64,000 bases of DNA, taken from contig NZ_CP119127.1 of NCBI RefSeq assembly GCF_030128825.1, positions 354,001-418,000 on the forward strand, read 5' to 3'. A program made the translations under genes and the position numbers. The DNA comes from Sphingobium sp. WTD-1 (GTDB lineage: Bacteria; Pseudomonadota; Alphaproteobacteria; Sphingomonadales; Sphingomonadaceae). The notes under the pieces are model-generated. The model was not told where the DNA came from. It was given only the letters and a program-made list of their open reading frames with translations, and did not search any database. Numbering within the stretch: position 1 is the stretch's first letter; each line of letters begins with the position of its first letter. This document shows, one piece after another, positions 46,458 through 64,000 of this stretch.

Positions 46458-48674
46458 TCAAGCCGCGACCACCGGCATGCCTGCATGCAGCAGCTTGTCG
46501 ATGGTCAGCGGATAGTCGCGCAGCCGGATACCGGTCGCATTATAGACCGCATTGGCCACCGCCGCGCCGGCGCCGCATATGCCCAGCTCACCCACGCCCT
46601 TGGCCTTCATCGGCGAGCTCTTGTCGTCCAGTTCCTCGATGAACAGCACATCCTGTTCAGGAATATCAGCATGCACCGGCACCAGATATTCGGCCATGTC
46701 ATGATTGACGAAGAAGCCGAAGCGGGTATCGACATCCAGCGCCTCCATCAGCGCCGCGCCGGCGCCCATGGTCATCGCCCCGATCACCTGGTTGCGCGCC
46801 GATTTGGGGTTGAGGATTCGGCCGGCGGCAAAGGCGCCGCCCATCCGGCGGATGCGCACCTCGGCCGTGTCGATATCGACCCCAACCTCGCAGAAATGCG
46901 CACCGAAGGTCGCCTGGGCATAGCGTTTGGCAAGATCGCCAAACTCGATCCTGTCCTCGACCCACAGCCCGTCACGTCCGGCGAGCGCACCCAAAGTCTG
47001 CGACTGGTTGCCCATCTTCACCAACCCGTCCTCAAACCGGGCAGCGGCGATCGGATAGCCGGCCTTTTCCGTCAGCTTCGCCCGCATCGCCATGGCGGCG
47101 GCATAAACGCCGGCGGTTGAACTATTGGCGCCCCATTGGCCGCCCGATCCGGCCGAGGCGGGAAAGCGGCTGTCGCCCAGACGCACCGTCACCGCATCCA
47201 CCTCCACGCCCAACACTTCCGCTGCGGTCTGGGCCATGATGGTGTAGGTGCCGGTGCCAATATCGGTCATGTCGGTTTCGACCGTCACCCGTCCCTGCCC
47301 ATCGATGCCGATGCGCGCGCCCGAATCCGTCGTAATATTGTTGCGGAAGGCGGCGGCCATGCCCATGCCCACCCACCAGCGCCCGTCGCGCATCTGGCCG
47401 GGGCGCGGATTGCGTTTGCCCCAGCCAAACCGTTCCGATCCGGCGCGCAGGCACTCCACCAGCTTGCGGCTGGAAAAAGGGCGCTGCGGGCCGGCTTCGG
47501 GATCATATTGCACGTCGTTGCGGATGCGCAGTTCGACCGGGTCCAGCCCGCAGGCCTCCGCCAGTTCGTCCATCGCCACTTCCAATGCCAGCATGCCGAC
47601 CGCCTCGCCCGGCGCGCGCATCGCATTACCCTCCGGCAGGTCGAGCACGGCCAGCCGATGCGCGGTGATGCGGTTGGCGCCGCGATAGAGAAGGCGGGTC
47701 TGCTGCGCTGCCGTTTCCGGGCCACCGCCGGGCAGGTCGCCCGACCAGACCTCATGCGCGATCGCATCGATCACGCCGTCCTTGCCCGCGCCCAGACGGA
47801 TGCGCTGGATCGTCGCCGGGCGATGGGTGGTGTTGTTGGGGATTTGCGGCCGGGCGATCGCGACCTTGACCGGCCGCCCGATCTGTTTCGCACCCAGCGC
47901 CGCGAGCAGCGCGTCCGCACGCAGGAACAGCTTCGCGCCGAAGCCCCCGCCAATATAGGGCGCGACCAGCCGGATATTCTCCTTGGGAATACCCAGCGTC
48001 TTGGCCATCTCGCCGACGCTCCAGGCGATCATCTGGTTGGCGGTCCACAAGGTCAGCTTGTCGCCATTCCAGGCCGCCGTCGTAGCGTGCGGTTCCATCA
48101 TCGCATGGCTATGATCGGGCGTACTGTAGCTTTGGTCGATCTTCACCGCCGCCTTGGCAAAGGCGCCATCGAAATCGCCGACCTTGGTGTCGGCCGGCGA
48201 CCCGAAACTGGCCGGCGGCATGGTGCCGTGCAGCCGTTCCGCCTTCAGGTCGAACCGCCCCTGTTCGGGCGCATAGTCGATCCGCACCAGCTTTGCCGCA
48301 TCACGCGCATTTTCCAGCGTGTCGGCAATCACCAGCGCCAGGGCCTGCTCATAATGCTGGATCGCCGGGCCGCCGAGCAGATGGGCGGTGTTGAACTGCC
48401 CCTTGCCCAGCGTGCCGGCATTGGCATGGGTGACGATGCCGAGCACGCCCGGCGCCGCCTCGGCCGCGCGCAGGTCCATCGAACGGATCTGCCCCTTGGC
48501 GATCGCGCTGCCGACAATCCAGCCATAGGCGGCATTGGGCGCCGCATCATGGCGTTCATAGGCATAGGGCGCAGTGCCGGTGACCTTGGCAGCACCATCG
48601 ATCCGGTCGTGCGGAATACCGACCACGCGGCCGCGGTCGATCGGGTTCGGGCCGGCTGGCGTGTCGAACTTCAT
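46458..48674 (-). CDS. paoC: Molybdenum aldehyde oxidoreductase, molybdopterin-binding subunit (PaoC-like)
   Basis: This 738-residue large subunit belongs to the xanthine dehydrogenase family and binds molybdenum cytosine dinucleotide. It shows [20 protein letters not shown] at the start, [20 protein letters not shown], and the C-terminal [18 protein letters not shown] segment with the catalytic Glu (GVGE). It works with the two smaller subunits encoded just upstream. With the Tat signal on the iron-sulfur subunit, the whole complex is probably periplasmic and oxidises aldehydes. It overlaps paoB by 4 bases. Confidence 0.92.
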
Positions 48675-49627
48675 GCCCGTGCCTCCTGCTGGCGATAGAG
48701 CGATGCCAGCGTCTGGCTCAGCAACGCCTTCTTGAAGTCATTATGCGGGGTGGTGCGGGCACCCGCCAAGGCAGCGTCGGCAACGGCCTTGGCACCCTGC
48801 GACGCGGCCGCATCGGCGTCCGCCACCCGCCAGGGTTTGGGCGCGATTCCGCCAAAGGCAAAGCGCGCCTGACCGTCGTTGCCGAACACCGCGGCGACCG
48901 ACACCAATGCGAAGGCATAGGAGGCTCGGTCACGCACCTTGCGATAGACATGGGTACCGCCGATCGGTTTGGGCAAGGTCACCGACAGGATCATCTCGCC
49001 GGGCTGCAGTGCATTATCCACCTGCGGTGCATCGCCCGGCAGGCGATGGAAATCGGCGATCGGGATGGTGCGCTTAACGCCGCCCGGTGCCATCGTCTCC
49101 GCCTGTGCATCCAGCAGCCGCAGCGCCACCGCCATGTCGCTGGGATTCTGGGCGATGCAGGCGTCGCTGACGCCGACAATCGCCAAGCTGCGGCTCATCC
49201 CCTGCATCGCGCCGCAACCACTGCCCGGCCGCCTTTTGTTACAAGGCATGCGCGTGTCGTAGAAATAGGGACAGCGGGTCCGCTGCAGCAGATTGCCACC
49301 GGTCGTCGCCTTGTTGCGCAACTGGCCCGATGCACCCGCCACCAGCGCCCGGCTGAGCACCGCATAGTCGCGCCGCACCCGCTTGTCGGCGGCAAGGTCG
49401 GTATTACGCACCAATGCGCCGATCCGAAGACCGCCCTCCTGCGTCGGCTCGATTGTGTTGAGGCCCAGATGGTTGACGTCGATCAGATGGGCCGGCGTCT
49501 CGATCTGCAATTTCATTAGGTCGAGCAGGTTTGTGCCGCCGGCGATGAAGCGGGCACCCTGGACCGATGCTGCCGCCTTGACCGCCGCTTCCACGCTGGC
49601 CGGGCGCTCATAGGTGAAGGGTCTCAT
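48671..49627 (-). CDS. paoB: Aldehyde oxidoreductase FAD-binding subunit (PaoB-like)
   Basis: This 318-residue subunit binds FAD ([19 protein letters not shown] motif near residue 35) and carries the extra Cys cluster [15 protein letters not shown], then GSGCGAM, which in the E. coli PaoABC-type enzyme binds a [4Fe-4S] centre. It starts at ATG 49627 and overlaps paoA by 4 bases. It transfers electrons from the iron-sulfur subunit to the outside acceptor. Confidence 0.92.
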
Positions 49628-50259
49628 GCCTTCTCCTCCCCGGCGACGTCGCGCATGGCGGCGATAATGTTGGGATAGGCGGCGCAGCGGCAGATATTGC
49701 CGCTCATCCGCTCGCGCGCCTCCGCGTCGGACCAGGCGACCTGATCCAGATCCTGCGTCACATGGCTCGGCACGCCGGCTTCGATCTCTTCCAGCACGGC
49801 GACTGCGGAGCATATCTGTCCAGGCGTGCAATAGCCGCATTGGTAACCGTCATGGACGATGAAAGCGCGCTGCATCGGGTGGAGCCGCTCCGGCGTGCCC
49901 AGCCCTTCGATCGTCGTGACCCTCTCGCCCTCGTGCATGACGGCAAGGGTCAGGCAACTGTTGATCCGGCGCCCCTCGACGATCACGGTGCAGGCGCCGC
50001 ACTGGCCATGGTCGCAGCCCTTCTTGGTGCCGGTCAGATGCAGATGCTCGCGCAGCGCATCCAGCAAGGTGGTGCGCGGGTCGAGTTGCAGATGCACGTC
50101 GCGCCCGTTCACCTTCATGTCGAGTGCCATCATGCGATTGCCCTCCTGTGCCGATGGGGACCGGGCGGGCGGAGCAGCCTGTGCCAGGCCGGGCACCGCA
50201 GCGGTCGCCACGGCGCTGCCCTGCAGAATATGGCGGCGCGTAAAACCATCGGACGTCAT
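49624..50259 (-). CDS. paoA: Aldehyde oxidoreductase [2Fe-2S] subunit with Tat signal (PaoA-like)
   Basis: This 211-residue subunit carries two [2Fe-2S] clusters: [11 protein letters not shown] with a later Cys in the N-terminal domain, and CGYCTPGQI with CRCAAYPN in the C-terminal domain. The N-terminus has a twin-arginine signal ([22 protein letters not shown]), so the assembled complex goes to the periplasm by Tat with its cofactors loaded. AGGAGG precedes ATG 50259. It is the first gene of the paoABC operon. Confidence 0.92.
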
Positions 50260-50596
50260 GGATGACCCTCCTCCTGATCCGCATGTCATACGAAGGGCGG
50301 CGGCAATCGATCCCCGCAGGCCGCAGAAATGCCGGATCGGCAAAGAGTGACAGAACATGGGTGCAGGTCAAGCGGAGGCATGATTCGACGATTCGAGTCC
50401 GGCGCATCCGCAGCATCAAACCAGGCACCATGCCATGTCATTTTATCCACAGAGGCAAAACCCCCGGAAAACGGGAGGTTTTCCGCCATTTCAAAAAGTT
50501 TTTCATTTTTCTGCAATTCAGCCCTTGCCGACTTGGGAAACCACTGCTAGTTCGCCGCCACCCGCCGAGAGGGACACACTCTCCCGGCCGCCAAGA
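50260..50596. other. 337-bp gap with a hairpin upstream of tRNA-Gly
   Basis: There is no gene. It should hold the paoABC promoter on the minus strand and a tRNA promoter on the plus strand. A terminator-like hairpin, AAAACCCCCG (50457-50466) with CGGGAGGTTTT (50472-50482), has an A bulge. Its T-ending right arm and the surrounding T runs suggest termination of plus-strand transcripts. Confidence 0.5.
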
Positions 50597-51050: not shown

Positions 51051-51653
51051 GTGCCCTCTCAATTCCCTTTCCCGTGCCATCGTCCGCCTAGGTCCGTATC
51101 CTCTGGATGCCACAATAGTCCCGCCGATGGGACGCCGGCATCCGACGCCGTTTCTCCGCCGGCCGAAAGCCTTGCGCAAACTTTCCAGACCGAGCGAGCC
51201 GGGCTTCTGCGTTATCTGGGCAAACGCGCCGGATGGGATGCCGCACCTGATCTTGTCCAAGAAGTCTTCGTGCGCGCCGCAAGCAGCGAGCAGGCGGGAC
51301 GGCTCATAAATCCTGCCGCGTTCGTCAAACGAATCGCCCGCAATTTGCTGATCGATCGAGCCCGAAAGATAGGACGTGATAATGTCGTCATCTTTCCACT
51401 CGACGAGCAGCGAGATGTCGTCGCGCAGCCAGAACAATGCCTCAATTTGGAGGCGTCCGATCTCCTACGCCTCTACGAGAATGCCGTCGATACGCTTCCC
51501 GAAAAGACCCGCCGTGTATTCCTGATGCACCGGGTGGATGAAATGAGCTATCGCCAAATCCATGAGCGATTGGAAATCAGCGTCGCGACGGTGGAATATC
51601 ACATGGTGAAGGCGCTCGCGCATATCAGCCGCCACGTGGACGCGGCGCGATGA
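51051..51653 (+). CDS. ECF sigma factor (FecI-like), lasso cluster
   Basis: This 200-residue sigma-70 family factor has region 2 (LLRYLGKRAGWDAAPDLVQEVFVRAA, then AFVKRIARNLLIDRARK) and region 4 (LPEKTRRVFLMHRVDEMSYRQIHERL, then SVATVEYHMVKAL). Its stop overlaps the FecR-like gene by 4 bases. FecI/FecR/TonB-receptor triads sense ligand at the outer membrane and turn on transport genes. The only in-frame start seen is GTG 51051; without a strong ribosome site, the first 40 Pro/Ser-rich residues are uncertain. Confidence 0.86.
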   Translation: MPSQFPFPCHRPPRSVSSGCHNSPADGTPASDAVSPPAESLAQTFQTERAGLLRYLGKRAGWDAAPDLVQEVFVRAASSEQAGRLINPAAFVKRIARNLLIDRARKIGRDNVVIFPLDEQRDVVAQPEQCLNLEASDLLRLYENAVDTLPEKTRRVFLMHRVDEMSYRQIHERLEISVATVEYHMVKALAHISRHVDAAR

Positions 51654-52648
51654 GCGACCTGGATGGCGACGATGGCGTCGACCGCGATGCCATCGAAGAA
51701 CAAGCTATCGCGTGGTTCCTGAATCTGCGCGCTCGTGAACCGGAGGCGGATACCTCGGATCTCGACGCATGGCTGGATCAGTCTGCCGATCATCGACGGG
51801 CCTATGAGCGGGCTCGATATCATTTCGAGGCTTCAGAGATACTGAAGTCATCTGTCCGCCATGGCAAAAAGAAGCCGTTACATTCCCGCACATTTTTCCT
51901 CGGCCTGGGAATTGCAGCAGCACTTGCTCTGGCAATAGCTCTAGGCGCGACCTTCACGTCGAACCAGCATCTGCGGACCGCTATCAACGAGGAAGCTGCG
52001 CCGGCGCGCATGCGTGCGCCGCGGCATCAGATCCGCACCGTGGCGCTCGCCGACGGTTCCGATCTCACGCTCGACGCCGCCAGCCAGATCGAAGTTGCAA
52101 TGACGAGCAGAGAACGTCGAATCCGGCTGCTCGAAGGGAAGGCTCGTATAGCCGTGAGCGCAGACCCTCGCCCCTTCATCGTCGAGGCTGGTTCAGGCGA
52201 ACTTACGGCTAATGCCGCAAGCTTTGATGTGGATATGGCTGCCGATGGTCAAATCGAGGTCGCCGTCCTGTCGGGTGAGGTCGAATTACGCAGGTTGCTG
52301 CGCCCCGCGGTGTTGGAGAGGGCAGCCCCAAAGATGCAGGCCGGGCAAAGCTATGGCTATCTTGCAAGCGACTTCACACCAATTGCGGTCGGACAGGACG
52401 ACACCGATCGACGTGACTGGCCCAACGGCTGGACCGAATATCATTCCGCGCCCCTGTCGGAGGTGATTGCGGATGCCAATCGATATGCAAGGCAGCCGAT
52501 CGAGCTCGATGAGCCACCCCTGGGCAATCTGCTGGTTTCGGGACGGTTCCATATTACGGATAGCGACCGCTTTGCCGAGAGGATCGCCTCTCTTTTCGGA
52601 CTTGCTGCAGTCCACCGCCAAGGCGCCATTCACCTGCGCAAGAGATAA
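51650..52648 (+). CDS. FecR-family anti-sigma/transducer, lasso cluster
   Basis: This 332-residue inner-membrane protein has a DUF4880-like N-terminal domain (AIAWFLNLRAREPEADTSDL and DAWLDQSADHRRAYERA), one transmembrane helix (near 85-103, FFLGLGIAAALALAIALGA), then the FecR domain (HQIRTVALADGSDLTLDAAS, RRIRLLEGKARIAV) and a C-terminal STN/DUF4974-like part. It would hold the ECF factor and receive the signal from the TonB receptor. It is coupled to the sigma gene by ATGA. Confidence 0.88.
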   Translation: MSDLDGDDGVDRDAIEEQAIAWFLNLRAREPEADTSDLDAWLDQSADHRRAYERARYHFEASEILKSSVRHGKKKPLHSRTFFLGLGIAAALALAIALGATFTSNQHLRTAINEEAAPARMRAPRHQIRTVALADGSDLTLDAASQIEVAMTSRERRIRLLEGKARIAVSADPRPFIVEAGSGELTANAASFDVDMAADGQIEVAVLSGEVELRRLLRPAVLERAAPKMQAGQSYGYLASDFTPIAVGQDDTDRRDWPNGWTEYHSAPLSEVIADANRYARQPIELDEPPLGNLLVSGRFHITDSDRFAERIASLFGLAAVHRQGAIHLRKR

Positions 52649-52743
52649 AAAACTTTGATGGACGACTAAGGTCGTACCAATTGCAGCGTCAATCCCCCCA
52701 GACGCGCCGATGTGGCGGGTCGGCAAACGCATTGGGGGGAACA

Positions 52744-55290
52744 ATGTCCGTCACGAAGGTTCAAACGATTGCATTGCTCATGGCTGGCGCGGCAGGGGTT
52801 GTTTCAATCCCAGCAACATGGGCCAAGGACGATCCGGCTATCGTCATCGATTTACCCGCACAGACGCTTGACCAATCTCTGCGCGCCGTTGCCTCGAGCG
52901 CTGGCTGGGAAATTTACATGTCTGCCAGCGATATCGAGGGCATTGCCGCTGCCCCGCTCAAAGGCAATCTGACCCCGAGTGAAGCTATTGGTCGGCTCCT
53001 CAAAACCACCGACCTCGAAGCTAAGATCGTGGATGGAGCCGTGATCATCCGCTCGAAGTCGATCAGCGATGAAAATTCGAGGGACATCATCACCGTCACC
53101 GGCAGCCGGATTACCGGGGCGCCGCCGTCGGCCCCCGTTCGCGTCATAACGGCCGAAGACATGCGCCGCGGCGGACAAGCGGACCTGGGCGAGGTCATTC
53201 GAAGTTCCACGGTGAATTTTGGCGGAGGGCAGAACCCCGGTGTCGGCACAAGCCAGGGCAACAGCGACGTCAACGTCAACGGATCATCGTCCCCCAACCT
53301 GCTTGGCCTGGGTCCAAATGCCACTTTGACGCTGCTGAATGGCAACCGCCTCAGCTACACCGGTCTTAATTCTGCCGTCGACATCAGCGCCATTCCCGCA
53401 ACCGCAGTGGATCGTGTCGAAATCATCACGGACGGCGCTTCGGCGATTTACGGCGCCGATGCCGTAGCCGGCGTCGTCAATGTCATTCTGAAGCGCGACT
53501 ATGAAGGCGTTAGCGCGCTGGCGAGAGTCGGGGGTTCGACCGATGGCGGCAATTTCCAGCAGCAATATAATCTGACGGGTGGCGCCAAGTGGGCCGGAGG
53601 CGGAATTCTCGCCGTTCTGGACCATTCGTCCAACTCCGACATTCCAGCATCGAGCCGTTCCTACGCCAGAAGCATGGCGACGGATTCATCGCTTTACCCC
53701 AGGCTCGGGCGCGATAGCGCGCTGATAAGCCTCTTCCAGGACATTGGCAGTCAGCTGAAGGCCAATGTCGACCTCATGTACAAGGACGGAAGGCAAGATG
53801 TGATCGCCGGCTTCCTTGAGGGACAGCCGCACACCGCCAGCGGCGCGGCGGTCCGGGCAGACACCCGGTCGTGGCTTGTCGCCCCGTCGCTTACGGCCAG
53901 CCTTGGCGCATCCTGGAATCTGCATCTCCTGTCGTCGTTCGGTGCCGACAAATCCCAGACTCATTCGGACATCTTCGCGGGAGGCTCGGTTTATGGGGCA
54001 AGTTATCGGCAATATGACAATGATGCTCAGTCGATCGAATTGAACGGCGACGGCCCGCTTTTCAGCCTACCGGCCGGCGAGGTTCGCGTTGCATTGGGCG
54101 GCGGCTATCGCCGTACCGGCATCGAACTGACCACCACCACATTGGGCGTCACGAGCAACGCCTTCAAGCAGCACAGTGAAAACGGATTTGGTTTCGCCGA
54201 ACTGCTGGTCCCGATCCTTTCGCCAGCGCAGAATTCCCGGCTGGGGCGTGCGCTTCGGCTGACGGGAGCATTCCGCTACGAGGCGAACTCAGGCACGGAT
54301 TCCGTCGCGCTTCCAAAATTGGGGATCGTCTATGAGCCATTTGATGGCCTGGCGATAAAGGGTAGTTGGGGCCGCTCATTCCGCCTCCCGACCCTGTATC
54401 AGCGATATGGAAGCTATTCCGCCGTCCTGTATCAGACCGCCAGATATGCCACGGGCTTTCCAGCTGACTCGACCATGATAATCTTGGGGGGCGCGAACGC
54501 CGACCTGAAACCCGAGAAATCGGAAAGTTGGACCTTCTCGGCGGAATTCCGTCCAGTCGAACATCCCGAATTCACCGGGAGCATCAGTTTTTTCCATTTT
54601 GATTACACCGATCGTGTTGCAACGCCGCTGACGTCTGCGATCGGCGTGCTCAACAACCCGATCTATAACAGCCTCGTCACGCTTGACCCGTCCACCTCCC
54701 TGCAACAGTCGCTGATCAGCGGTGCAGCGATCGGTCTGCAGAATGGCACGACCGGCACTTATGATCCCAGCCGGGTCGTCGCAATTCTGGATGGCCGTGA
54801 CCGAAACATGGCACGCGAGATCTACAAAGGCATCAGCCTTTCCATGCGCTACCTGATCGGAGACCCGGATCGCGAGGCGCTCGATCTCAGCTTCGATGGC
54901 AATTGGATCGATAGCAGCAGGCAATTGTTCGACGGCCTGCCGACGGTCGATCTTTCCGGCACCATATTCAACCCGCCCAAGCTCAAGGGCCGCGTCGGTG
55001 CCAGCTATGTCACACCGCGGCTCACCCTCTCTGCATTCACCAATCTGAGTTCAAGCATCCTCGATAACCGGAGTCTGCCAGCTTACCGCCTGCGCGCGCT
55101 CGCGACCCTCGATCTTTCCGCCATCGCCAAGATGGGAGGCGGATTCGAATTGGGCGCCAATATGCAGAATGTCTTCAACGCCAAGCCCCCGTTGATCGTC
55201 ACAGGCTCTGGTTATGACACGCCCTTCGATACGACCAATTACTCCCCAATTGGACGCTTTCTCTCCATCCAGATTCGCCGGTCGTGGTGA
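52744..55290 (+). CDS. TonB-dependent receptor with STN signalling domain, lasso cluster
   Basis: This 848-residue receptor has a signal peptide (ALLMAGAAGVVSIPATWA), a periplasmic STN domain (IDLPAQTLDQSLRAVASSAG, TPSEAIGRLLKTTDLEAKI), a TonB-box-like IITVTGSRI, plug and barrel ending in a C-terminal Trp. The STN domain contacts FecR, so it is a transducing receptor. Receptors in lasso clusters of this class are thought to import the lasso peptide or its cargo. GGGGGGA precedes ATG 52744. Its stop overlaps the isopeptidase ATG by one base. Confidence 0.9.
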   Translation: MSVTKVQTIALLMAGAAGVVSIPATWAKDDPAIVIDLPAQTLDQSLRAVASSAGWEIYMSASDIEGIAAAPLKGNLTPSEAIGRLLKTTDLEAKIVDGAVIIRSKSISDENSRDIITVTGSRITGAPPSAPVRVITAEDMRRGGQADLGEVIRSSTVNFGGGQNPGVGTSQGNSDVNVNGSSSPNLLGLGPNATLTLLNGNRLSYTGLNSAVDISAIPATAVDRVEIITDGASAIYGADAVAGVVNVILKRDYEGVSALARVGGSTDGGNFQQQYNLTGGAKWAGGGILAVLDHSSNSDIPASSRSYARSMATDSSLYPRLGRDSALISLFQDIGSQLKANVDLMYKDGRQDVIAGFLEGQPHTASGAAVRADTRSWLVAPSLTASLGASWNLHLLSSFGADKSQTHSDIFAGGSVYGASYRQYDNDAQSIELNGDGPLFSLPAGEVRVALGGGYRRTGIELTTTTLGVTSNAFKQHSENGFGFAELLVPILSPAQNSRLGRALRLTGAFRYEANSGTDSVALPKLGIVYEPFDGLAIKGSWGRSFRLPTLYQRYGSYSAVLYQTARYATGFPADSTMIILGGANADLKPEKSESWTFSAEFRPVEHPEFTGSISFFHFDYTDRVATPLTSAIGVLNNPIYNSLVTLDPSTSLQQSLISGAAIGLQNGTTGTYDPSRVVAILDGRDRNMAREIYKGISLSMRYLIGDPDREALDLSFDGNWIDSSRQLFDGLPTVDLSGTIFNPPKLKGRVGASYVTPRLTLSAFTNLSSSILDNRSLPAYRLRALATLDLSAIAKMGGGFELGANMQNVFNAKPPLIVTGSGYDTPFDTTNYSPIGRFLSIQIRRSW

Positions 55291-57461
55291 TGCTGATGCG
55301 CGCGGGAACATGCCTGGCCATCTTGCTGACACTCGCGGCGGCACAGCCGATGGTGGGCCGTGCGGTCGCGGCTCAAGGCCATTTCTGGACCATGGACGAC
55401 ATATTGGCGATCCCCGCTGTGGCCGGCACCGCGCTGGCCGATGACGGACGATCGCTTGCCTACATCCTTCGGGTCGCAAACCGAAAGGAGAACCGCACGG
55501 AGTTCGAACTCCATGTGACCAACTTCCAGCCGGATGGAGACAGGATCCTTGCCCGTTCCATCTGGATGGAAAGGCTCCAGGCCGTTCCCGGCAAAATGGC
55601 CTGGAGCCTATTGATCGATCAGGGACAAGGCGTTCAGCTCTATCAGTTCGGGGCCGACGGCGCTATGCAAGCCCTTGTCGTCAATCCCGAGCCAGTCCTG
55701 GTCGGGTCAGCCGATGGTGCACAATTCGGCTATGGCTTCACCGGGCCAGTACGCTTTGGTCTTGCCTATTATGACTGGTCACCCGACGGGCGTCGACTCT
55801 TCTACTCACTGCTGCGCGGTGAGGACGAAAAAGGAGAAATCCGGCATGATGAAGACGTCACGCGGCTGACCATCTATCGGCGACGAGGCCCGAGGGTCAC
55901 GACACATTTCTTTATGAAGGAGGATGGTGGTCCGCCGCTCTGGATCGCTGACGTTATCGGCCCCGACCGGGTTGGGCGCTATCTGGGCGGCATGCCGATC
56001 TGGCACGATGATGCGCTCGACTATGCACTCCAGGCAGACAAACTCAATGTGCCCCATATCCAGCGTTACCGCTGGCGGTTCGAGGATCGCAAAAGCCGAC
56101 CTCTTGACGAAGGGCCCGCGCTGTTCGCCGATCGCATCACGGGACCTCATGACGGAACGGTCGCGATCGAGCGCGTCAACCAGCAGCGTCGCTTGAGAGA
56201 GCGAACAATCGATGGCCGCTTGATCGACTATGGGGTGCTTGATGCCACATTGTCGGACGCTCGATCCCCTGGACATTGGCGATCTCCAGACGGGAGTATG
56301 GCTCTCATAGCAGTCCGCTTCACCAGCGCGGGCCGCTATGGCCTGATCCGCCTAGATACCGCTGGCAGAGTGGCGCGGCTCGAGGTTCCTGAAAGCCTGA
56401 CCCATTGCAGTTTTACGCCCGGACTGTCCGAAGGCGTGTGCGTGCGCGAAGGGGTAACGCGAGCGCCATCCTTCGTACGGGTCACCGTCGGCACGGGCAG
56501 GATCGAAGCGCTTCAGCCCCTGTCGCCGCGACATGATGCGGTTACGCCGCTTCGTGTGGAGACCCGCATCCTGACGAACGCCTATGGATACCGCGCGCGA
56601 AATCTGATCATTTACCCCCGGACGTATAAATCCGGGCAACGCTATCCCACTGTGCTCGTCACGCATGGTTCCGACGCCGACGAACGGTTCGGGTCAAAGG
56701 ATATACAATGGGATTATCCGATCCAGCTCTTCGCTGAACGCGGATATATGGTCATACTGGCCAATGAGCCCGACGTCTCGCAAAGTGACGAACTGGAAAA
56801 GGCTTCGGCAGATCGCAACATGTGCGGCGGGACAACACCGCCTGCGGAAATACAGCGTCTGGGTTGGCTCAATCAGCTCGAGAGCTTCCGTGTAATATTG
56901 CATGCGCTTGATTCAGAAGGCCTGATCGATCCCAGGCATGTCGGCATTGCAGGGTACAGCTATGGCTCCCAGATCGCGAATGTTGCCGTCACCCAGGCTG
57001 ATCTGTTTTCAGCTGCATCCAGCGGCGATGGGGGGTTCCTCGAACCAACCAGCTATCGCACGCACCAATGTGTCTACCGGGCTATCTATGGCGGGGCTCC
57101 TGGCGATCCTGTTGCCCAGCCAAATTATGCCGCTTTGGCCCCTTCCTATCGAGCGCGCTTCGCTCAGGCGCCCGTGCTGCAGCAGATTGCCGAACCACAT
57201 GAGTCCGCGATCGATTTCCATCAGGCATTGCGCGCTGCGCAGATCCCCTCGGAAATATCACTTTATCCCGGAGAGAGCTGGGCGTCGGACGAGACGCATT
57301 TTTTCCATCTGCCCTCAAATCAGCTGGGCGCCATGGCGGAGAATCTGGAGTGGTTTGATTATTGGCTACGGGATCTTCCACCCTCAACTGGACCGGATGG
57401 CGCGCGACGCGCGCGATGGGAGGCCATGCGGCTTGCGCGGCCCAAGTCAGGCGATCGATGA
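55290..57461 (+). CDS. Lasso peptide isopeptidase (AtxE-like, S9 family)
   Basis: This 723-residue exported hydrolase has a beta-propeller followed by an alpha/beta-hydrolase domain. The nucleophile is Ser557 in GYSYGSQ; His670 lies in DETHFF; Glu635 or Glu638 (AEPHES) is the likely acid. AtxE-type isopeptidases use Ser/Glu/His and open the lasso ring by cutting the isopeptide bond. A signal peptide (MRAGTCLAILLTLAAAQPM) places it in the periplasm. ATG 55290 overlaps the receptor stop (TGATG). It ends 8 bases from the convergent cyclase gene, inside a lasso cluster, which supports this function. Confidence 0.88.
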   Translation: MLMRAGTCLAILLTLAAAQPMVGRAVAAQGHFWTMDDILAIPAVAGTALADDGRSLAYILRVANRKENRTEFELHVTNFQPDGDRILARSIWMERLQAVPGKMAWSLLIDQGQGVQLYQFGADGAMQALVVNPEPVLVGSADGAQFGYGFTGPVRFGLAYYDWSPDGRRLFYSLLRGEDEKGEIRHDEDVTRLTIYRRRGPRVTTHFFMKEDGGPPLWIADVIGPDRVGRYLGGMPIWHDDALDYALQADKLNVPHIQRYRWRFEDRKSRPLDEGPALFADRITGPHDGTVAIERVNQQRRLRERTIDGRLIDYGVLDATLSDARSPGHWRSPDGSMALIAVRFTSAGRYGLIRLDTAGRVARLEVPESLTHCSFTPGLSEGVCVREGVTRAPSFVRVTVGTGRIEALQPLSPRHDAVTPLRVETRILTNAYGYRARNLIIYPRTYKSGQRYPTVLVTHGSDADERFGSKDIQWDYPIQLFAERGYMVILANEPDVSQSDELEKASADRNMCGGTTPPAEIQRLGWLNQLESFRVILHALDSEGLIDPRHVGIAGYSYGSQIANVAVTQADLFSAASSGDGGFLEPTSYRTHQCVYRAIYGGAPGDPVAQPNYAALAPSYRARFAQAPVLQQIAEPHESAIDFHQALRAAQIPSEISLYPGESWASDETHFFHLPSNQLGAMAENLEWFDYWLRDLPPSTGPDGARRARWEAMRLARPKSGDR

Positions 57462-57469
57462 TCGCCGAG

Positions 57470-59194
57470 CTAGCCGGCCCACTGGCGAGCCCAGCTTTCC
57501 ACCCCGGCAAGACCGAGCAGGCGGCGGGCATCCGCTCGGTCATAGGCCGGTCTGCCTGACGGCGCATCCGGCGGGGGCACAGCGCATATGAGGTCATGCT
57601 CAGCGAGGAAGCCGGACTTGAGGAAGGACAATATCTTGCGCTCATTGTCCCAATAATATCGGTCGAGAAAGCCCGCCGGCCCGCCTTTGGTCCGGCGGGC
57701 GGTAATGGCAGGCGGCAGATCGGACGAAAAGGCGCGGCGCGCCATGGAGCGATCGATCCCGCCTTCCACCCATTGCCAGCTGGGTATGCCCAGGCAGACC
57801 TCCATGACCGACTGGGCCAGTAACGGCGCGATTGTCGGTGGCTGGACGCGCCGGTCATGAAATCCTTCATAGCCTACAGCTCGGGATAATGCGCGAATAT
57901 GCGCGGCTGCGCCGGGTGCGAGGCCCTCGGGCGGTGTCAGCCAAGGATGGATAGCGATCCTCTCCTTCGCCGCATTCAATCTTTCGATGTTGAGAAAGCC
58001 AGAAGTGCCTTGCGCTGCTTTGCGCGGACCACGTGCGAGATGCCGCAAGATATAAAGCAGAATGGTGGCATAGGAAGCGTCGTGCAATCTCGAAACATCC
58101 TGGATCGAGGCGATAACAGCCTTGGCGCCCGCTGCGTCCCGATAGCGATCTAGGATCGGCACAATCGAATGGGTCATTCCAAAGACATTATCGCCGCCAT
58201 GGCCCGTGAAGAACGCCGCAATATTATGTTGTGCTGCAACCATGGCCTGAGCCTTGGCAGTGCTTTGGGCATAATGGGCCATCAGCGGACGCGCAGCATG
58301 TGCGACAATGGGCTGCTCAACATCGATGGCATCCAGGTCGTACCGATAGATGTCGAGCGGCATGTCGAGCGCTTGGGCAACAAGCTGCGCATAGTATGTC
58401 TCATCACCCTCGCGGTCGGTCCAACGCATATGGAAGCCCCGAGGCGAAGAAGTCGCCCCGGCGAGCCCCGCGCAGACGATCGAAGAATCCAGTCCACCCG
58501 ACAGGCCCGACGAGATCGAGGCGAACTCACCAGCCCAAGTTTTGATCGCGTCGAGAACGGTGGCGCGCAGATGTTCGATCGAGGCAGGGCCAAGGCGCGC
58601 ACGACCGGCTATATAGTCCCAAGGTTGCCAGAGAAGGTCCGAGCGCTGCTTTGATGGCCCGATGTGTAGCCGCCCGCCCGGCACAATTTCCCGCACTCCG
58701 CAGAGGCATGTCTGTTCGCCAGCGTGGAACGGATGCCACATGTGGAGAAGCAGCGCGTCCAGATCGACAGATATTCCATCTGATGCCGCGAAGGGAGATG
58801 TGCCCACCTGAGGCGCAATGACGATGCCCCCGTCAATCTCTCTCCAAAAAGCCGGCAGACCACCGGAGGGATCGCGGATTATGACGATGTCGCCGCCAGC
58901 AATCTGGAAGATGGCGACATAACTGCCCCAATAATCGCGTATCAGACTTTGCCCATGGGTTATGATGGCCGCATTGGTTTCGGCCGCGTTGAGCTCCTTG
59001 ACCCGCCGACTGGGTAGCGCCTTCGTAAACAGATGCCCGATTATCGCGCCCTGCGTGCCGATCATCACGACAGGGTCGGACGTCCAAAGGTTGATAGGCA
59101 CCGCGAGCGGCACCTTTGACATCTGGTCTGTCGCTGCACCTTTGGATCCGGCAGGCGCGCAGCGGACATAAGCCAGATAGCGCGACGCACTCAT
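57470..59194 (-). CDS. Lasso peptide cyclase (asparagine-synthetase-like C protein)
   Basis: This 574-residue protein is asparagine-synthase-like. It adenylates the Asp/Glu side chain of the core so that Gly1 can attack and close the macrolactam ring. It has the N-terminal glutaminase-like domain without an N-terminal catalytic Cys, then the PP-loop SSGLSGGLDSS near residues 222-232 and a C-terminal synthetase domain (FFTGHGGDNVFG). The start (ATG 59194) overlaps the B gene stop by ATGA. It is convergent with the isopeptidase. No substitutions that obviously break it are seen. Confidence 0.93.
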   Translation of the reverse strand: MSASRYLAYVRCAPAGSKGAATDQMSKVPLAVPINLWTSDPVVMIGTQGAIIGHLFTKALPSRRVKELNAAETNAAIITHGQSLIRDYWGSYVAIFQIAGGDIVIIRDPSGGLPAFWREIDGGIVIAPQVGTSPFAASDGISVDLDALLLHMWHPFHAGEQTCLCGVREIVPGGRLHIGPSKQRSDLLWQPWDYIAGRARLGPASIEHLRATVLDAIKTWAGEFASISSGLSGGLDSSIVCAGLAGATSSPRGFHMRWTDREGDETYYAQLVAQALDMPLDIYRYDLDAIDVEQPIVAHAARPLMAHYAQSTAKAQAMVAAQHNIAAFFTGHGGDNVFGMTHSIVPILDRYRDAAGAKAVIASIQDVSRLHDASYATILLYILRHLARGPRKAAQGTSGFLNIERLNAAKERIAIHPWLTPPEGLAPGAAAHIRALSRAVGYEGFHDRRVQPPTIAPLLAQSVMEVCLGIPSWQWVEGGIDRSMARRAFSSDLPPAITARRTKGGPAGFLDRYYWDNERKILSFLKSGFLAEHDLICAVPPPDAPSGRPAYDRADARRLLGLAGVESWARQWAG

Positions 59195-59829
59195 CTCGCC
59201 AGGATAGGTTCGAAAGCGGTGATCCGATCGACTCTGTCGGCCATCAGCCTGTCTTCGCACTGAACCCAACAATGCGCCGCGATCGGCAACTGTACGCCAA
59301 TCACCAGGGTCGCCTGGTGGCCGAAGCGTCGCAACATCCGCGAAATCGCGATGCTGCGCGCAAGACAGTGATTATCGAGCGGCAGAAACTGCCGCAGGAG
59401 GTAGAATGCAGCGGCGACCATGGCTTCGCTGAAGATTGGCAGTTTCAACTGCGGCCTCCCTGCCCCCACCTCGACGCGATCCAAGATGGTCCGCAGCGCG
59501 TCGCGACGGACCTGAATCACAGCAATGGACAATGCAACAAGCGCCACTGGTGCCAAGAGCCAACCATGTCTGAGCTTGATCAGATCCAGATGACTGCATG
59601 TCGGAGCTACGGGTGCCGCTGCGCCTTCTGCGTCCATTATGGCCGGATCGAGCAGTCCTGCTCGGACCAGGGCCGCAATGTTCTCAGGGCCTGGCTTTGT
59701 TGCGAGGAGGGCGGTCAGATGGTCTCTGGTTGGCCCGCGGACAAGCTGATATCGCTCGCTCGCAATATTGAGAATTACGGGCGTCTGTCCGATCAGGCAG
59801 GCATGTAAATTTCGTCCTATCTGTCGCAT
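59191..59829 (-). CDS. Lasso leader peptidase with fused RRE (B protein)
   Basis: This 212-residue protein has an N-terminal PqqD-like leader-recognition element (about 5-70, RNLHACLIGQTPVILNIASERY) and a C-terminal transglutaminase-like peptidase. The catalytic Cys is near residue 153 in LDNHCLARSIA, and the His near 185 in IAAHCWVQ. It removes the leader from the lasso precursor. AAGGA precedes ATG 59829, which is preferred over the TTG six codons upstream. It is followed by the cyclase gene and preceded by the interrupted precursor. Confidence 0.92.
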   Translation of the reverse strand: MRQIGRNLHACLIGQTPVILNIASERYQLVRGPTRDHLTALLATKPGPENIAALVRAGLLDPAIMDAEGAAAPVAPTCSHLDLIKLRHGWLLAPVALVALSIAVIQVRRDALRTILDRVEVGAGRPQLKLPIFSEAMVAAAFYLLRQFLPLDNHCLARSIAISRMLRRFGHQATLVIGVQLPIAAHCWVQCEDRLMADRVDRITAFEPILAR

Positions 59830-59851
59830 TGCGATTTCCTTCCGCAAATCA

Positions 59852-59888
59852 AAAGGGCGCGCCGCTTTGGATGAGCGGTGCGCCCTTT
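59852..59888 (-). terminator. Stem-loop between precursor gene A and gene B
   Basis: AAAGGGCGCGCCGCT (59852-59866) and AGCGGTGCGCCCTTT (59874-59888) pair with one mismatch across a 7-base loop. It begins 6 bases after the precursor stop and lies just before the B gene. Lasso operons of proteobacteria often have such a hairpin after gene A; it can stabilise the A transcript and reduce read-through into B and C. Confidence 0.75.
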
Positions 59889-59894
59889 CGACCT

Positions 59895-59925
59895 TCAGTC
59901 TTCGTCGGAAATGCCGGAAGCCTTG
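59895..59925 (-). pseudogene. 3' fragment of the interrupted lasso precursor gene
   Basis: Read on the minus strand, 59925-59917 is the target duplication (CAAGGCTTC); the next bases give Ser-Gly-Ile-Ser-Asp-Glu-Asp and stop TGA at 59897-59895. This is the original C-terminal end of the core. The codons join in frame with the 5' part at 61248-61363 when the IS and one duplication are removed. The element separates the fragment from its start codon, so it is no longer translated from the A start. Confidence 0.9.
59917..59925. repeat. 9-bp target-site duplication (left copy)
   Basis: GAAGCCTTG lies directly before the left end of the element. The same 9 bases follow the right end at 61248-61256. 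A 9-bp duplication agrees with IS256-family transposition (8-9 bp). Identical copies indicate that this insertion has not been rearranged. Confidence 0.95.
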
Positions 59926-61247
59926 GGGACTGTCAGGATTTCCGTGTGCGGCCGGGCATAATGGGCAACAAGGAGTCCCACTATGTCACGACGCAAAGAA
60001 CCTGCCATACCGAATGAGCTTCTCGATCAGCTTTTGGCGGGCGGCGCTGCCAGTGCCGCCTTCGAGCAGGGCGGTCTGCTCGATTCGCTGAAGAAGGCGC
60101 TGACAGAGCGTGCCCTGAATGCGGAGATGGATCACCACCTCGCTGGCGAAGACGGCGCCGGCAACATGCGCAACGGCTACGGTCGGAAGACGGTAATGAC
60201 CGACACCGGCAAGTTGGCGATCGACGTGCCGCGCGATCGCCAGTCGAGCTTCGACCCGCAGTTGATCGCCAAGTATCAACGCCGCTTTCCCGGCTTCGAC
60301 GACAAGATCGTGTCGATGTACGCGCGCGGCATGAGCACCCGCGAGATCACCAGGCACCTGCACGATCTATACGGCATCGACGTCTCACCCGATTTGATTA
60401 GCACGGTGACCGACGCCGTGCTCGATGAGGTCGCCACTTGGCAGCAGCGGCCGCTCGATCCGGTTTACCCGCTGGTCTTCTTCGACGCGATCCGGGTCAA
60501 GATCCGCGACGAGGGCATGGTGCGCAACAAGGCGATCCACATTGCGCTGGGCGTCCGCGCCGACGGCGCAAAGGAGGTGCTCGGCTTGTGGCTCGAGCAG
60601 AATGAGGGTGCCAAGTTCTGGCTTCGGGTGATGAACGAGCTTCGCAACCGTGGCGTTGAAGACATCCTGCTGGCCGTCGTTGACGGCCTGAAGGGCTTTC
60701 CCGATGCGATCACCGCAGTGTTCCCCGATGCGATCGTCCAGACCTGCATCGTTCACCTGCTGCGCAACTCGATGGACTTCGTCTCCTGGAAGGACCGAAA
60801 GAACCTCGCCAGCGCGCTCAAGGAGATTTACCGTGCCACCGACGCAGATGCCGCCGAAAAGGCGCTGACAGCATTTGAGGCTGGCCCTTGGGGGCAGCGC
60901 TATCCCGCCATCGGCCAGAGCTGGCGGCGCGCCTGGGGCGAGGTGATCCCGTTTTTTGCGTTCCCCGACGAGGTCCGCCGGATCATCTACACTACGAACG
61001 CCATCGAAGCTTTGAACTCGAAGCTCAGGCGGGCTGTCAGGGCCAGGGGACACTTCCCCAGCGACGAGGCCGCCACCAAGCTGCTCTACCTGATCTTGAA
61101 TCGGTCGGAGAAAGAGTGGAAGATGCCACCACGTGAGTGGACCATGGCGAAGGCGCAATTTGCCGTGATCTTCGGCGAACGTTTCATCAGAGCCATGGCG
61201 GCCTGATGATCAACCGCCCGGCCGCACACGGAAATCCTGACAGTCCC
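59926..61247 (+). mobile_element. IS256-family insertion sequence, 1322 bp
   Basis: The element is bounded by perfect 32-bp inverted repeats (59926-59957 and 61216-61247, beginning GGGACTGTCAGGATTTCCGT), carries one full transposase gene, and is flanked by the 9-bp duplication GAAGCCTTG. These are the features of a complete IS256-family element. The transposase is intact, so it may still be active. It sits inside the lasso precursor gene, with the transposase on the opposite strand. Confidence 0.97.
59983..61206 (+). CDS. IS256-family transposase
   Basis: This 407-residue DDE transposase is of usual length. The catalytic residues lie in YPLVFFDAIRVKIRDEG (first Asp), LLAVVDGLKGFPDAI (second Asp) and TTNAIEALNSKLRRAVRARG (Glu). 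AAGGAG precedes ATG 59983. There is no frameshift. The stop is 41 bases from the right end of the element. Confidence 0.97.
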   Translation: MSRRKEPAIPNELLDQLLAGGAASAAFEQGGLLDSLKKALTERALNAEMDHHLAGEDGAGNMRNGYGRKTVMTDTGKLAIDVPRDRQSSFDPQLIAKYQRRFPGFDDKIVSMYARGMSTREITRHLHDLYGIDVSPDLISTVTDAVLDEVATWQQRPLDPVYPLVFFDAIRVKIRDEGMVRNKAIHIALGVRADGAKEVLGLWLEQNEGAKFWLRVMNELRNRGVEDILLAVVDGLKGFPDAITAVFPDAIVQTCIVHLLRNSMDFVSWKDRKNLASALKEIYRATDADAAEKALTAFEAGPWGQRYPAIGQSWRRAWGEVIPFFAFPDEVRRIIYTTNAIEALNSKLRRAVRARGHFPSDEAATKLLYLILNRSEKEWKMPPREWTMAKAQFAVIFGERFIRAMAA

Positions 61248-61363
61248 GAAGCCTTGTACAGCGTGCCGTTGCCATCATCCTGGCCGATCAGCAGAACGCC
61301 GCGGGTGAGTTCGACTGCATCTCCCAAATCGACGATATCCTGCGAATGTGCATCACGTTCCAT
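61187..61363 (-). CDS. Lasso precursor gene (5' part) fused to IS sequence
   Basis: From ATG 61363 (GGAG 8 bases upstream; a second ATG at 61369 overlaps the ribosome site) the leader MERDAHSQDIVDLGDAVELTR (21 residues, Thr at -2) is followed by core GVLLIGQDDGNGTLYKAS. The element enters at codon 39; the frame runs on into it and adds GLSGFPCAAGRLIIRPPWL before a stop at 61187. The intact gene would end GISDED after the same KAS. The encoded core has Gly1, with Asp8 and Asp9 as ring partners. This explains why the cluster has no obvious precursor. Whether the hybrid is made is unknown. Confidence 0.88.
   Translation of the reverse strand: MERDAHSQDIVDLGDAVELTRGVLLIGQDDGNGTLYKASGLSGFPCAAGRLIIRPPWL
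61248..61256. repeat. 9-bp target-site duplication (right copy)
   Basis: GAAGCCTTG follows the right end of the IS and is identical to 59917-59925. Its complement encodes the Lys-Ala-Ser junction of the precursor, so the duplication lies inside codons 37-39 of the A gene. Confidence 0.95.
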
Positions 61364-61369
61364 GGTCAT

Positions 61370-62208
61370 TCTCCTTCAAATCAGCGACTCCATGTCGCAA
61401 TTCGAAAGATTTCACGGAAACAATTCACCATCCATTTTATAATTACATTATAATCTATGAACAATTATCCCGATGCCACGGGGATGTGCTAATAGTGACC
61501 GAGCAGTGAGGGCGTGCGTTCGGCACACGCACTGACCCCTTTAGCCTTTCAGCCTGGACATGCGGGCCAGTCGCCCGGTCACCATCCACAATTGACTTTG
61601 TGGAAGAAGGAGACTGTTGCGACATATCTTGTTGCACAAGATAAATTGCCCCCACTTTGATACCTATCTGGCCCTTCGCGGCCAGTGATTGCATATTTGT
61701 CTGAGGTCTCGTCAAAGCGGCAGACCTGCATTCTCCTCGCAACCCAAGGGGATTATCCCTTCGCTGCCATGCACCCATTCCGACGCTCGTCGACTGCTCT
61801 GCCGTGTCGTCAAACGGACATGCGAAATTGCAGCAAATCTTCGATAAAGTCCCATATTCGCCATGCTCAAGAATGAGAGCGGCAACAGATTCAGTGGGGA
61901 ATGCGGTTTCTTCAGAACCATTTTGGAGACACATCCATAGTGCCTGAAATATAATTAGAAACGTCCGCAGCGATAATTATAATAATCATTATTGCCCGAT
62001 AGCAGTGAAATTTACATCGGAAATTTCTTATTTCAACCAATATTAAATTGTTCGTTTGACATTTCCCAAATATAATATATTTTCAATAGTGCTTAACGTC
62101 GCCTGCGACGAAATTTGCATCCTATTTGGGTGTCGTTTCCTTACTTGCGCTATCAGCTTCACCTGCAATTCCGCGGGTGGATTCTCTGTTTTCGTGAAGG
62201 GAACGCCC
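61370..62208. other. 839-bp AT-rich region upstream of the lasso precursor
   Basis: No gene here can be assigned. The part next to 61370 must hold the promoter and 5' leader of the precursor gene on the minus strand; a TATAAT-like run lies near 61440-61455. The frame 61455-61934 (minus) is open for 159 codons but has no family signature and atypical composition, so I do not call it a gene. The right part, about 61950-62100, is very AT-rich and is likely to include the long untranslated leader of the cold-shock gene. Confidence 0.5.
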
Positions 62209-62415
62209 ATGCCTATCGGCACCGTAAAATTCTTTAATTCTGACAAGGGGTACGGCTTCCTCGCCCCCGAGGACGGCGGTCCGGACAGTTTTGTCCATAT
62301 TTCTGCCGTAGAGCGTGCGGGAATGATAACGCTCCATAAGGATCAGCGTCTGAGCTACGAAGTCGAAGCAGATCGACGAGGCAAGCAGTCGGCCGTGAAC
62401 CTGGAAGCCGCGTAA
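62209..62415 (+). CDS. Cold-shock protein, CspA family
   Basis: This 68-residue single-domain RNA/ssDNA-binding protein has the RNP1 and RNP2 motifs GTVKFFNSDKGYGFLAPED and DSFVHISAV. AAGGGA precedes ATG 62209. A longer open frame starts at 62056 but the family starts at MPIGTVKF. It is preceded by a long AT-rich region, as expected for cold-shock genes that have extended leaders. It is one of several paralogues expected in sphingomonads. Confidence 0.93.
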   Translation: MPIGTVKFFNSDKGYGFLAPEDGGPDSFVHISAVERAGMITLHKDQRLSYEVEADRRGKQSAVNLEAA

Positions 62416-62857
62416 ATTACGAAGTCGAGTTTTTATTTTACACTGCCAGCGCGGCATTGCGTCGCGCTGGCTTGCCGTCTTGTCTTTGCTTAAACATCGG
62501 ATAGCGGTTAAGTACCACATAATTGCCCGAAATATGGGCAATTGCCGCCGGCCAAGTGACAGCGGCCTAATGCTCCGGCTTTTTTTCTTTTGCCTTATGT
62601 GCCGGCGAAAGACGTCGTTGAGCGAGACTTTTTCATTACATCACATGCCAAGATGCGTGTTTCAGGAATATCATGAATCTCAGTATCCGTTTGAATATGG
62701 CTCATGCCAAATTATCGCCCGCGACTGGCAAAACGCCGCGTTCATTTTACCAAAACGTCCCTTTGGGCACTCTGCCCGTGCGCGAATTGCGCAGGGCTGT
62801 CGCTGAAATGATCGATTGACGTCCGTCGCAACGACATCCAACTCGCAGGAGATCGAC
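62416..62857. other. 442-bp gap with a terminator after the cold-shock gene
   Basis: A hairpin GCCAGCGCG (62445-62453) with CGCGCTGGC (62463-62471) follows the stop by 29 bases and may terminate the cold-shock transcript, though no U tract follows. The rest shows no gene; short open frames at 62480-62806 lack signatures. Confidence 0.45.
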
Positions 62858-63064
62858 ATGCCCGCCACGATCGACTTCTACCTGGCCCGCGTCGCACAAT
62901 GTGACAAAGAGGCGCAGGAAACCAATCTGGCGAATGTGAAAGAGCGCTGCCTGCGGTCAAAAGCTGCATGGCAGATCATGTCTGATCGCGCTTTGCTGGT
63001 CCAGATCGACCGCAAAAGACAAGCGCTGGACAAGATGCGAAAAAAGGATGAGCATCTTGATTAA
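62858..63064 (+). CDS. Small helical protein of unknown function, 68 aa
   Basis: AGGAGA precedes ATG 62858. The sequence MPATIDFYLARVAQCDKEAQ, then NLANVKERCLRSKAAWQIM, resembles a small alphaproteobacterial family with a 'L-NV-ERCLR(S/A)-AAW' centre, seen in many sphingomonads and often present in several copies, from memory. It overlaps the next gene by 17 bases, so they are in one transcript. Function unknown. Confidence 0.78.
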   Translation: MPATIDFYLARVAQCDKEAQETNLANVKERCLRSKAAWQIMSDRALLVQIDRKRQALDKMRKKDEHLD

Positions 63065-63281
63065 GCGGGCTGGAAGACGGTTCGACGGTCCATATCTATC
63101 TTCGGATCAGATCGAGCGCCAAGGGCATATTCTTGAACTTGCCATAGCCCGATTGGGCTCTCAGGGCGCCATCGCATTTCTGAACGGCGAAGAGCCCGGC
63201 CTCGGCGGCCGACCACTAGATATCGCGGTAAAAAGCTCTTCGGGGCTTGAGGCGGTAAAGCGAATTCTCGAAGAACTCTGA
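63048..63281 (+). CDS. ParS/MbcA (DUF2384)-like small protein, 77 aa
   Basis: The C-terminal part AIAFLNGEEPGLGGRPLDIA, then SSGLEAVKRILEEL, matches the MbcA/ParS/Xre antitoxin C-terminal pattern ('--FL--PNP-LGG-TPL-L---- G---V---L'). The N-terminal helix-turn-helix expected in full Xre-type antitoxins is short or missing. A partner RES-domain toxin is not seen downstream. ATG 63048 overlaps the preceding gene. It may be an orphan or domesticated antitoxin. Confidence 0.66.
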   Translation: MSILIKRAGRRFDGPYLSSDQIERQGHILELAIARLGSQGAIAFLNGEEPGLGGRPLDIAVKSSSGLEAVKRILEEL

Positions 63282-64000
63282 TAGATATTGTCAGATTTAT
63301 CATTGATGCTTTTGCGCTTAAGCATCCGCGCATCGTTGTCCGATGGCCAAGGGCTGGGTCACGAACAGCGCAAGGTCGCGCTGATGAATATGCGGAACCC
63401 CGACCATAAGCCAACAAGCTTGGGATGCAGTCCAGCACCGTCATCTCCACTGTCAAGGCGATGGGTATGAAGGCAGTTCCATTGGGCCGGCGGCAAAACA
63501 GGCGTGGATGGGCAGGGGAAGGCAGCCCGCCAGGCCATCCATGGTCATGAGCGGGCGCTGCATTTGCTGTCAGCGCCAGGTGAGCGAGCGCATTTCTTGG
63601 TTGCCAACCAATTATGCCGAATTCTCGAACAGAGTGGAGGAGCAGCATATTGGATGATGGGGACGATCTGAAGATCGGTGAATTATGAAAATCTATAAAA
63701 CGTCTTATGATATTAAATAGATATCAAAGTGAATATGGTATAATATGATTATTTTTAAAATAATTAAGAGCGTTCTACATATTTGATCTCAAATATCATG
63801 CATTATATTTTATAAAATATCGTTGCTATGCCGATCCAATAATTCTTAAGGTTTTTCATGTGATTTCAAAATTAAATCATGGACTTTGAGAATATTATTT
63901 GATAAACACAATTATTGCGCGAAATTTGCTGCAAGCATTCGCCGTGACAGAGAGACCAACGTGCTCCCGCTTGCCAGCTGAGGGAGCCCATCCGTGGAAG
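63282..64000. other. 719-bp AT-rich region without recognisable genes
   Basis: From about 63660 to 63920 the sequence is strongly AT-rich and non-coding. A short open frame near 63504-63659 (plus, GTG start) encodes ARQAIHGHERALHLLSAPGE and onward, but it has no recognised family. An antisense open frame (63061-63648) overlaps the ParS-like gene and is likely a shadow. No tRNA or integrase is seen up to the window end. Confidence 0.5.

Follow-up and report, generated by a model that had tools for sequence, protein, structure and literature searches.

Lasso peptide clusters of the benenodin/subterisin type, whose precursors are recognised by the family models NF033522 and PF24178, are described in alphaproteobacteria and include that of benenodin-1 of Asticcacaulis benevestitus. 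In A. excentricus and A. benevestitus, an isopeptidase and a TonB-dependent receptor are encoded beside the lasso genes on the opposite strand, and the sphingocin cluster of Sphingomonas sp. BPH likewise consists of a lasso operon beside an isopeptidase and a TonB-dependent receptor (PMC11006600). In strain BPH, a laboratory miniTn5 insertion in the lasso B gene knocked out the cluster, with loss of phenanthrene use, and a siderophore-like role has been proposed for isopeptidase-linked lasso peptides (PMC11006600). Natural insertions that silence a ribosomal-peptide cluster have been described for the cyanobactin clusters of Microcystis, of which other strains keep working versions: a 95-bp MITE is located within one cyanobactin precursor gene, and two elements and a frameshift are found in strain NIES843 (PMC3428304).

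A lasso locus of the benenodin/subterisin type is encoded in Sphingobium sp. WTD-1, within a window of 64,000 nucleotides (the whole stretch of DNA that was analysed), and comprises the following features:

51051-51653, plus strand: ECF-type sigma-70 factor (TIGR02937, 61.1 bits, cut-off 42.9)
51650-52648, plus strand: FecR-type regulator (PF04773)
52681-55290, plus strand: TonB-dependent receptor with an STN domain (PF00593, PF07715, PF07660)
55284-57461, plus strand: lasso peptide isopeptidase (E), 725 aa (PDB chain 5jrk, 504.9 bits, residues 3-717)
57470-59194, minus strand: lasso C, asparagine-synthetase-like macrolactam cyclase, 574 aa (PF00733), open in this genome and in the relatives G038 and G092
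59191-59829, minus strand: lasso B protein with a B2 peptidase domain, 212 aa, open, alternative TTG start at 59847 (NF033537, 78 bits; PF13471)
59846-59894, minus strand: strong hairpin between A and B (-35.9 kcal/mol, z -5.26)
59895-59925, minus strand: remaining 3' end of gene A with its final codons and stop, severed by an insertion element
61248-61363, minus strand: 5' part of gene A, encoding the leader and the first 17 core residues, plus two bases of codon 39 (NF033522, 50.1 bits)

The original prediction, made from the sequence of the window, had placed genes B and C and an isopeptidase here; all three are open, B and C being matched by domain and family models and the isopeptidase by PDB chain 5jrk. 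At this locus, (i) a B peptidase and a C cyclase are encoded beside gene A, (ii) an isopeptidase of the AtxE2 kind and a TonB-dependent receptor are present, and (iii) the precursor carries the lasso hallmarks Thr at -2 (LTR-G), Gly at +1 and the ring acids D8 and D9. Chain 5jrk is listed in the PDB as a peptidase-like protein and is, we assume, the sphingopyxin I isopeptidase; the isopeptidase also scores 64.9 bits against AtxE2 (5txc) and 157.5 bits against NF033523, under the 400-bit cut-off of that model. The genes of the sigma factor, FecR-type regulator, receptor and isopeptidase, on the plus strand, converge on the A-B-C operon on the minus strand, whereas the isopeptidase set is divergent in Sphingomonas sp. 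BPH (PMC11006600).

Unlike in the benenodin/subterisin clusters cited above, gene A is split here by an element, and none of the cores named in the accessible text of PMC11006600 is the native core of this gene. The case represents a probable natural inactivation by insertion; the cluster belongs to a known kind, and so does the break. It differs from the insertion in Sphingomonas sp. BPH in being natural, in lying in A and not in B and in affecting a different core (PMC11006600), and from the Microcystis cases in that the latter concern a cyanobactin and not a lasso peptide and, in NIES843, several lesions instead of one clean insertion (PMC3428304). Among the papers listed in the literature searched, outside which most subscription journals lie, none was recognised as describing a lasso precursor gene that an insertion sequence had entered naturally, and the accessible text of PMC9723273 holds nothing on broken precursors.

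The insertion element and the reconstructed precursor gene

The element and its target duplication are located as follows:

59926-61247, plus strand: IS256-family element, 1322 bp, 99.9% identical to elements annotated ISSpwi2
59983-61206, plus strand: IS256-family transposase, 407 aa, open (PF00872, 451.2 bits; NF033543, 410.9 bits)
59917-59925: left copy of the 9-bp target duplication GAAGCCTTG
61248-61256: right copy of the 9-bp target duplication GAAGCCTTG

The bounds originally proposed for an IS256 element splitting the precursor gene proved exact to the base, and the same nine bases are present at both flanks, as had been stated. All the characters expected of an IS256-family insertion are found, namely a transposase of this family, inverted repeats (perfect over 32 bp at the termini), a duplication in the range of 8-9 bp and an empty site in relatives. 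The element entered at codon 39 of the 45-codon gene A. When the flanks were joined by a script with one repeat retained, a 138-nt gene was obtained, encoding MERDAHSQDIVDLGDAVELTR-GVLLIGQDDGNGTLYKASGISDED, with a leader of 21 residues (Thr at -2) and a core of 24, in agreement with the earlier reconstruction. A second in-frame ATG is present at 61369, two codons upstream, and an AGGAG motif is better spaced for the start at 61363.

The empty site is found in G038 and G092, two further species of the genus, and reads as one precursor in each. The joined flanks align with G038 and with G092 over 570/570 bases without a gap, at 97.2% and 96.7% identity, respectively. Of the 138-nt gene, 131 bases were compared, of which 131 agree with G092 and 129 with G038, and the precursor protein of each species is identical, letter for letter, to the reconstructed one. 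Because of this gapless flank match and the identical product in both species, the reconstruction is not a matter of chance.

The lasso role first assigned to the product is supported by the benenodin-family model NF033522 (cut-off 33), which gives 54.1 bits to the genes of G038 and G092, and by PF24178 (Subterisin, cut-off 27), which gives 30.5 bits to the intact protein; on these matches, gene A is classified as a benenodin/subterisin-type lasso precursor. The core of the empty-site allele in G038 and G092 is short (24 aa), with an acidic C-terminal end (ISDED). The same ending (...GSGISDED) is found in a homologue encoded by a more distant relative, G056, and further relatives in the protein database end in GISDED (P0004) and GISEED (P0005). 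One cluster of this database, which stands for 11 member sequences on 29 contigs, has a representative identical to the intact form, of 47 aa when counted from the ATG at 61369. In a scan of named genome contigs, from which near records may be left out, relatives of C or of the precursor were not confirmed. An intact precursor gene elsewhere in this genome was also sought, and the only match to NF033522 (E up to 0.1) was the split gene itself.

Eleven full-length copies of the element, 100% identical end to end, are present in this genome (G000), and 8-9 bp target duplications are found at 10 of them, while no match to the element was detected in G038 or G092 among the best four candidates scored per genome. 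The identity of the copies, their duplications and the lack of such matches in both relatives fit a recent burst, and a recent insertion at the lasso precursor is also inferred. The only copy without a target duplication (L006, G000:C1:2779606-2780927) is possibly the product of recombination between element copies. The element is the same as ISSpwi2 (IS256 family) of plasmids of Sphingobium yanoikuyae and Sphingopyxis, with 99.9% identity over the full length; ISSpwi2 elsewhere is found on sphingomonad plasmids, whereas the copy studied here is chromosomal and within a lasso precursor gene. No mention of ISSpwi2 was found in the literature searched, which likewise has most subscription journals outside it. 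A consensus scan of 59800-61600 returned two promoter-like sites, both upstream of A on the minus strand, and no outward promoter toward B inside the element.

The remaining genes of the locus

The element places 1.3 kb of its own sequence, in antisense orientation relative to the transposase, ahead of B and C, and the hairpin between A and B, at a position where hairpins are also present in G038, G092 and G056, is parted by it from the 5' end of A. No second copy of the processing genes was detected in this genome, where B2 (NF033537, E up to 0.01) and the cyclase (E<=1e-20) have one match each. Over the lengths that were compared, the genes of B, C, the isopeptidase, the receptor and the FecR-type regulator are free of internal stop codons in this genome, G038 and G092, so that the predicted import and cleavage half of the locus is open. 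The sigma factor gene of this genome is open as well.

In pairs of these three genomes, dN/dS was 0.05-0.06 for the receptor, which was aligned from its sixth codon onwards; it was about 0.2 for C and reached 0.33-0.50 for B, aligned from the second codon after the TTG. Thus B has the highest value among the five genes in every genome pair, despite the identity of the G038 and G092 precursors. This is not a sign of decay after the insertion, since the value is also 0.33 between the unbroken relatives G038 and G092. Relaxed selection on the broken operon was considered and rejected, as no clear excess of changes is seen in this genome (9 lineage-specific residues in B, compared with 4 in G038 and 8 in G092).

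By eye, the open reading frames at 46475-50373 of the window resemble a molybdenum hydroxylase/xanthine dehydrogenase operon; this stretch is missing from G092, where its flanks are about 50 bases apart, and is present in G038 at least from 47048, the start of the locus fetched from that genome. At the other side (61673-64000), collinearity with G038 ends at 61672, while G092 is 98.9% identical up to 64000. Judged from these alignments, the lasso locus borders a mosaic boundary.

The chimeric frame and the fate of the native peptide

The view that the element splits gene A stands, but the gene is not simply cut off, as its frame remains open for 18 further residues:

61187-61363, minus strand: chimeric open frame, 58 aa, made of precursor residues 1-40 and 18 residues from the element end

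The chimera reads MERDAHSQDIVDLGDAVELTR-GVLLIGQDDGNGTLYKASG-LSGFPCAAGRLIIRPPWL, with the stop at 61187-61189. The leader and core residues 1-19 are kept, including D8 and D9, core residues 18 and 19 being partly or wholly re-encoded by element bases, and ISDED is replaced by the 18 residues read from the element. The resulting core has 37 aa and ends in ...PPWL, so that both the short length and the acidic C-terminus are lost. The chimera scores 50.1 bits against NF033522, above its cut-off of 33, and 26.7 bits against PF24178, just below its cut-off of 27. Since the NCBI model NF033522 is passed, caution is called for in genome mining, where automatic searches could return this 37-residue core although it stems from a recent insertion.

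Five database proteins with differing front parts (P0006-P0010) share the exact C-terminal sequence GLSGFPCAAGRLIIRPPWL with the chimera; two of them bear names given by their source, one being a DNA adenine methylase. They are apparently truncated genes that were re-ended by the same element, and this common ending appears to be the tail that the element supplies to genes entered in that frame and orientation.

Among related loci, 45 distinct cores were extracted from L011-L071 and L078-L090, the locus of this genome being left out, with a filter requiring an upstream M and 20-45 residues from the motif to the stop, which a very long-tailed core would escape; L014, L019, L022, L029, L030 and L064 lack the motif and contributed no core. 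All 45 end in D or E and measure 20-26 aa, 40 of the 45 end in G[IL]xx[DE], and an acid is found at positions 7-9 in 45/45 and at position 8 in 41/45. The C-terminal end removed by the element therefore looks constrained. According to a review, the tail can be shortened as far as the residue below the lower steric lock, and benenodin-1 as isolated lacks 5 tail residues; tail additions typically cause product formation to drop significantly, yet astexin-1, pandonodin and some other lasso peptides tolerate them well, pandonodin holding the record with a tail of 18 aa in a total of 33 (PMC13352647). GFP fusions have also been described (PMC8498205).

As the insertion lies in the only precursor gene detected, the native lasso peptide is likely lost. 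We consider it probable that the strain no longer makes this peptide, the 24-residue core not being encoded in its genome. ISSpwi2 lies in the only detected benenodin-type precursor gene, and the 58-aa chimeric precursor would yield little or no functional peptide, because it has lost its acidic C-terminus and because the element has moved the hairpin, B and C 1.3 kb away from the 5' part of A; a complete null is likely. The cell would retain the predicted half for import and cleavage, and lasso peptides of relatives could still be taken up. Some observations speak against loss, namely that no decay of the remaining operon is seen and that the chimera, which passes NF033522, keeps the leader, Thr at -2, D8/D9 and core residues 1-19. 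In a rival reading, B would cleave the chimera and C would close it, giving a lasso of a 37-residue core in which ring and loop are native, the presumed plug residues are kept and the tail is extended by the element. The 58-aa frame is indeed open behind the native start and upstream region, with the loop and presumed plug residues also intact, the junction happens to restore G-L-S, comparable to the GLSDD ends of several related cores, and long tails can be tolerated, as in pandonodin and the astexin-1 fusions (PMC8498205, PMC13352647). However, none of the 45 distinct extracted cores exceeds 26 aa, the terminal acidic residue that all of them have is lost, tail additions typically lower the product significantly (PMC13352647), 1.3 kb of element now precede B and C, and PF24178 is narrowly missed, which makes such a re-tailed product rather unlikely. 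In the improbable event that the open tail LSGFPCAAGRLIIRPPWL supplied by the element forms a natural lasso fusion, this tail would, depending on the plug position, be longer than that of pandonodin, which holds the record with 18 residues. New lasso tails would in that case arise from insertion sequences, and a long-tailed lasso might or might not be accepted by the isopeptidase and receptor of the strain.

The insertion itself could also be an assembly error, in which one of the 11 identical copies was misplaced at this site, identical repeats being the usual cause of misjoins and one copy (L006) having no target duplication. This we hold to be very improbable, as the 9-bp duplication is site-specific (the 9-mer occurs once in each 4.7-kb empty-site locus fetched), both flanks are collinear with G092 and the contig spans 5.08 Mb.

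With loss of the native peptide as the preferred reading, the strain represents a clean natural mutant, in which one gene is disrupted, the other operon genes and those on the side of the receptor and isopeptidase are open, and the exact intact allele is available in two close relatives. The strain and relatives of the G038 or G092 type offer a ready comparison for the role of isopeptidase-linked lasso peptides in the cells that make them, and the strain is equally suited to the question of whether non-maker cells import and cut the lasso peptide. Since the insertion in Sphingomonas sp. BPH abolished phenanthrene use (PMC11006600), this natural mutant would be worth a growth comparison.

Lasso operons in the genus

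In the genus set of 94 genomes, this one included, a C homologue (E<=1e-20) is encoded in 58 genomes and a precursor match (E<=0.001) is present in 53. Among the 120 cyclase genes listed, 99 are paired with a precursor, and for 21 the 9 kb upstream on the same strand contain no match to NF033522; by motif, a precursor is present at two or more of these unpaired genes (L016, L021), and the unpaired regions of G021, G066 and G012 entered the 45-core motif scan only. The distance between precursor and C is 706-1043 bp in 97 of the 99 pairs, the exceptions being this genome (2044 bp) and G079 (5257 bp). On this measure, which covers paired genes only and to which small changes within a precursor are invisible, sequence of mobile elements is found to split 2 of the 99 paired operons, once in A (this genome) and once in B (G079). 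Eight related loci, picked by eye and mostly for incomplete or offset model matches, contained no further broken precursor, and all eight encode short, acidic-ended cores.

A lasso operon of the genus has been hit independently in G079 (L086, 3042-7480), where B is split by a 4.4-kb block with transposases of the IS256, IS110 and IS1380 families, and the precursor is complete. The same locus is encoded in G075, where it is 99.97-100% identical outside the block and B is open (227 aa). Eleven bases recur on either side of the G079 block.
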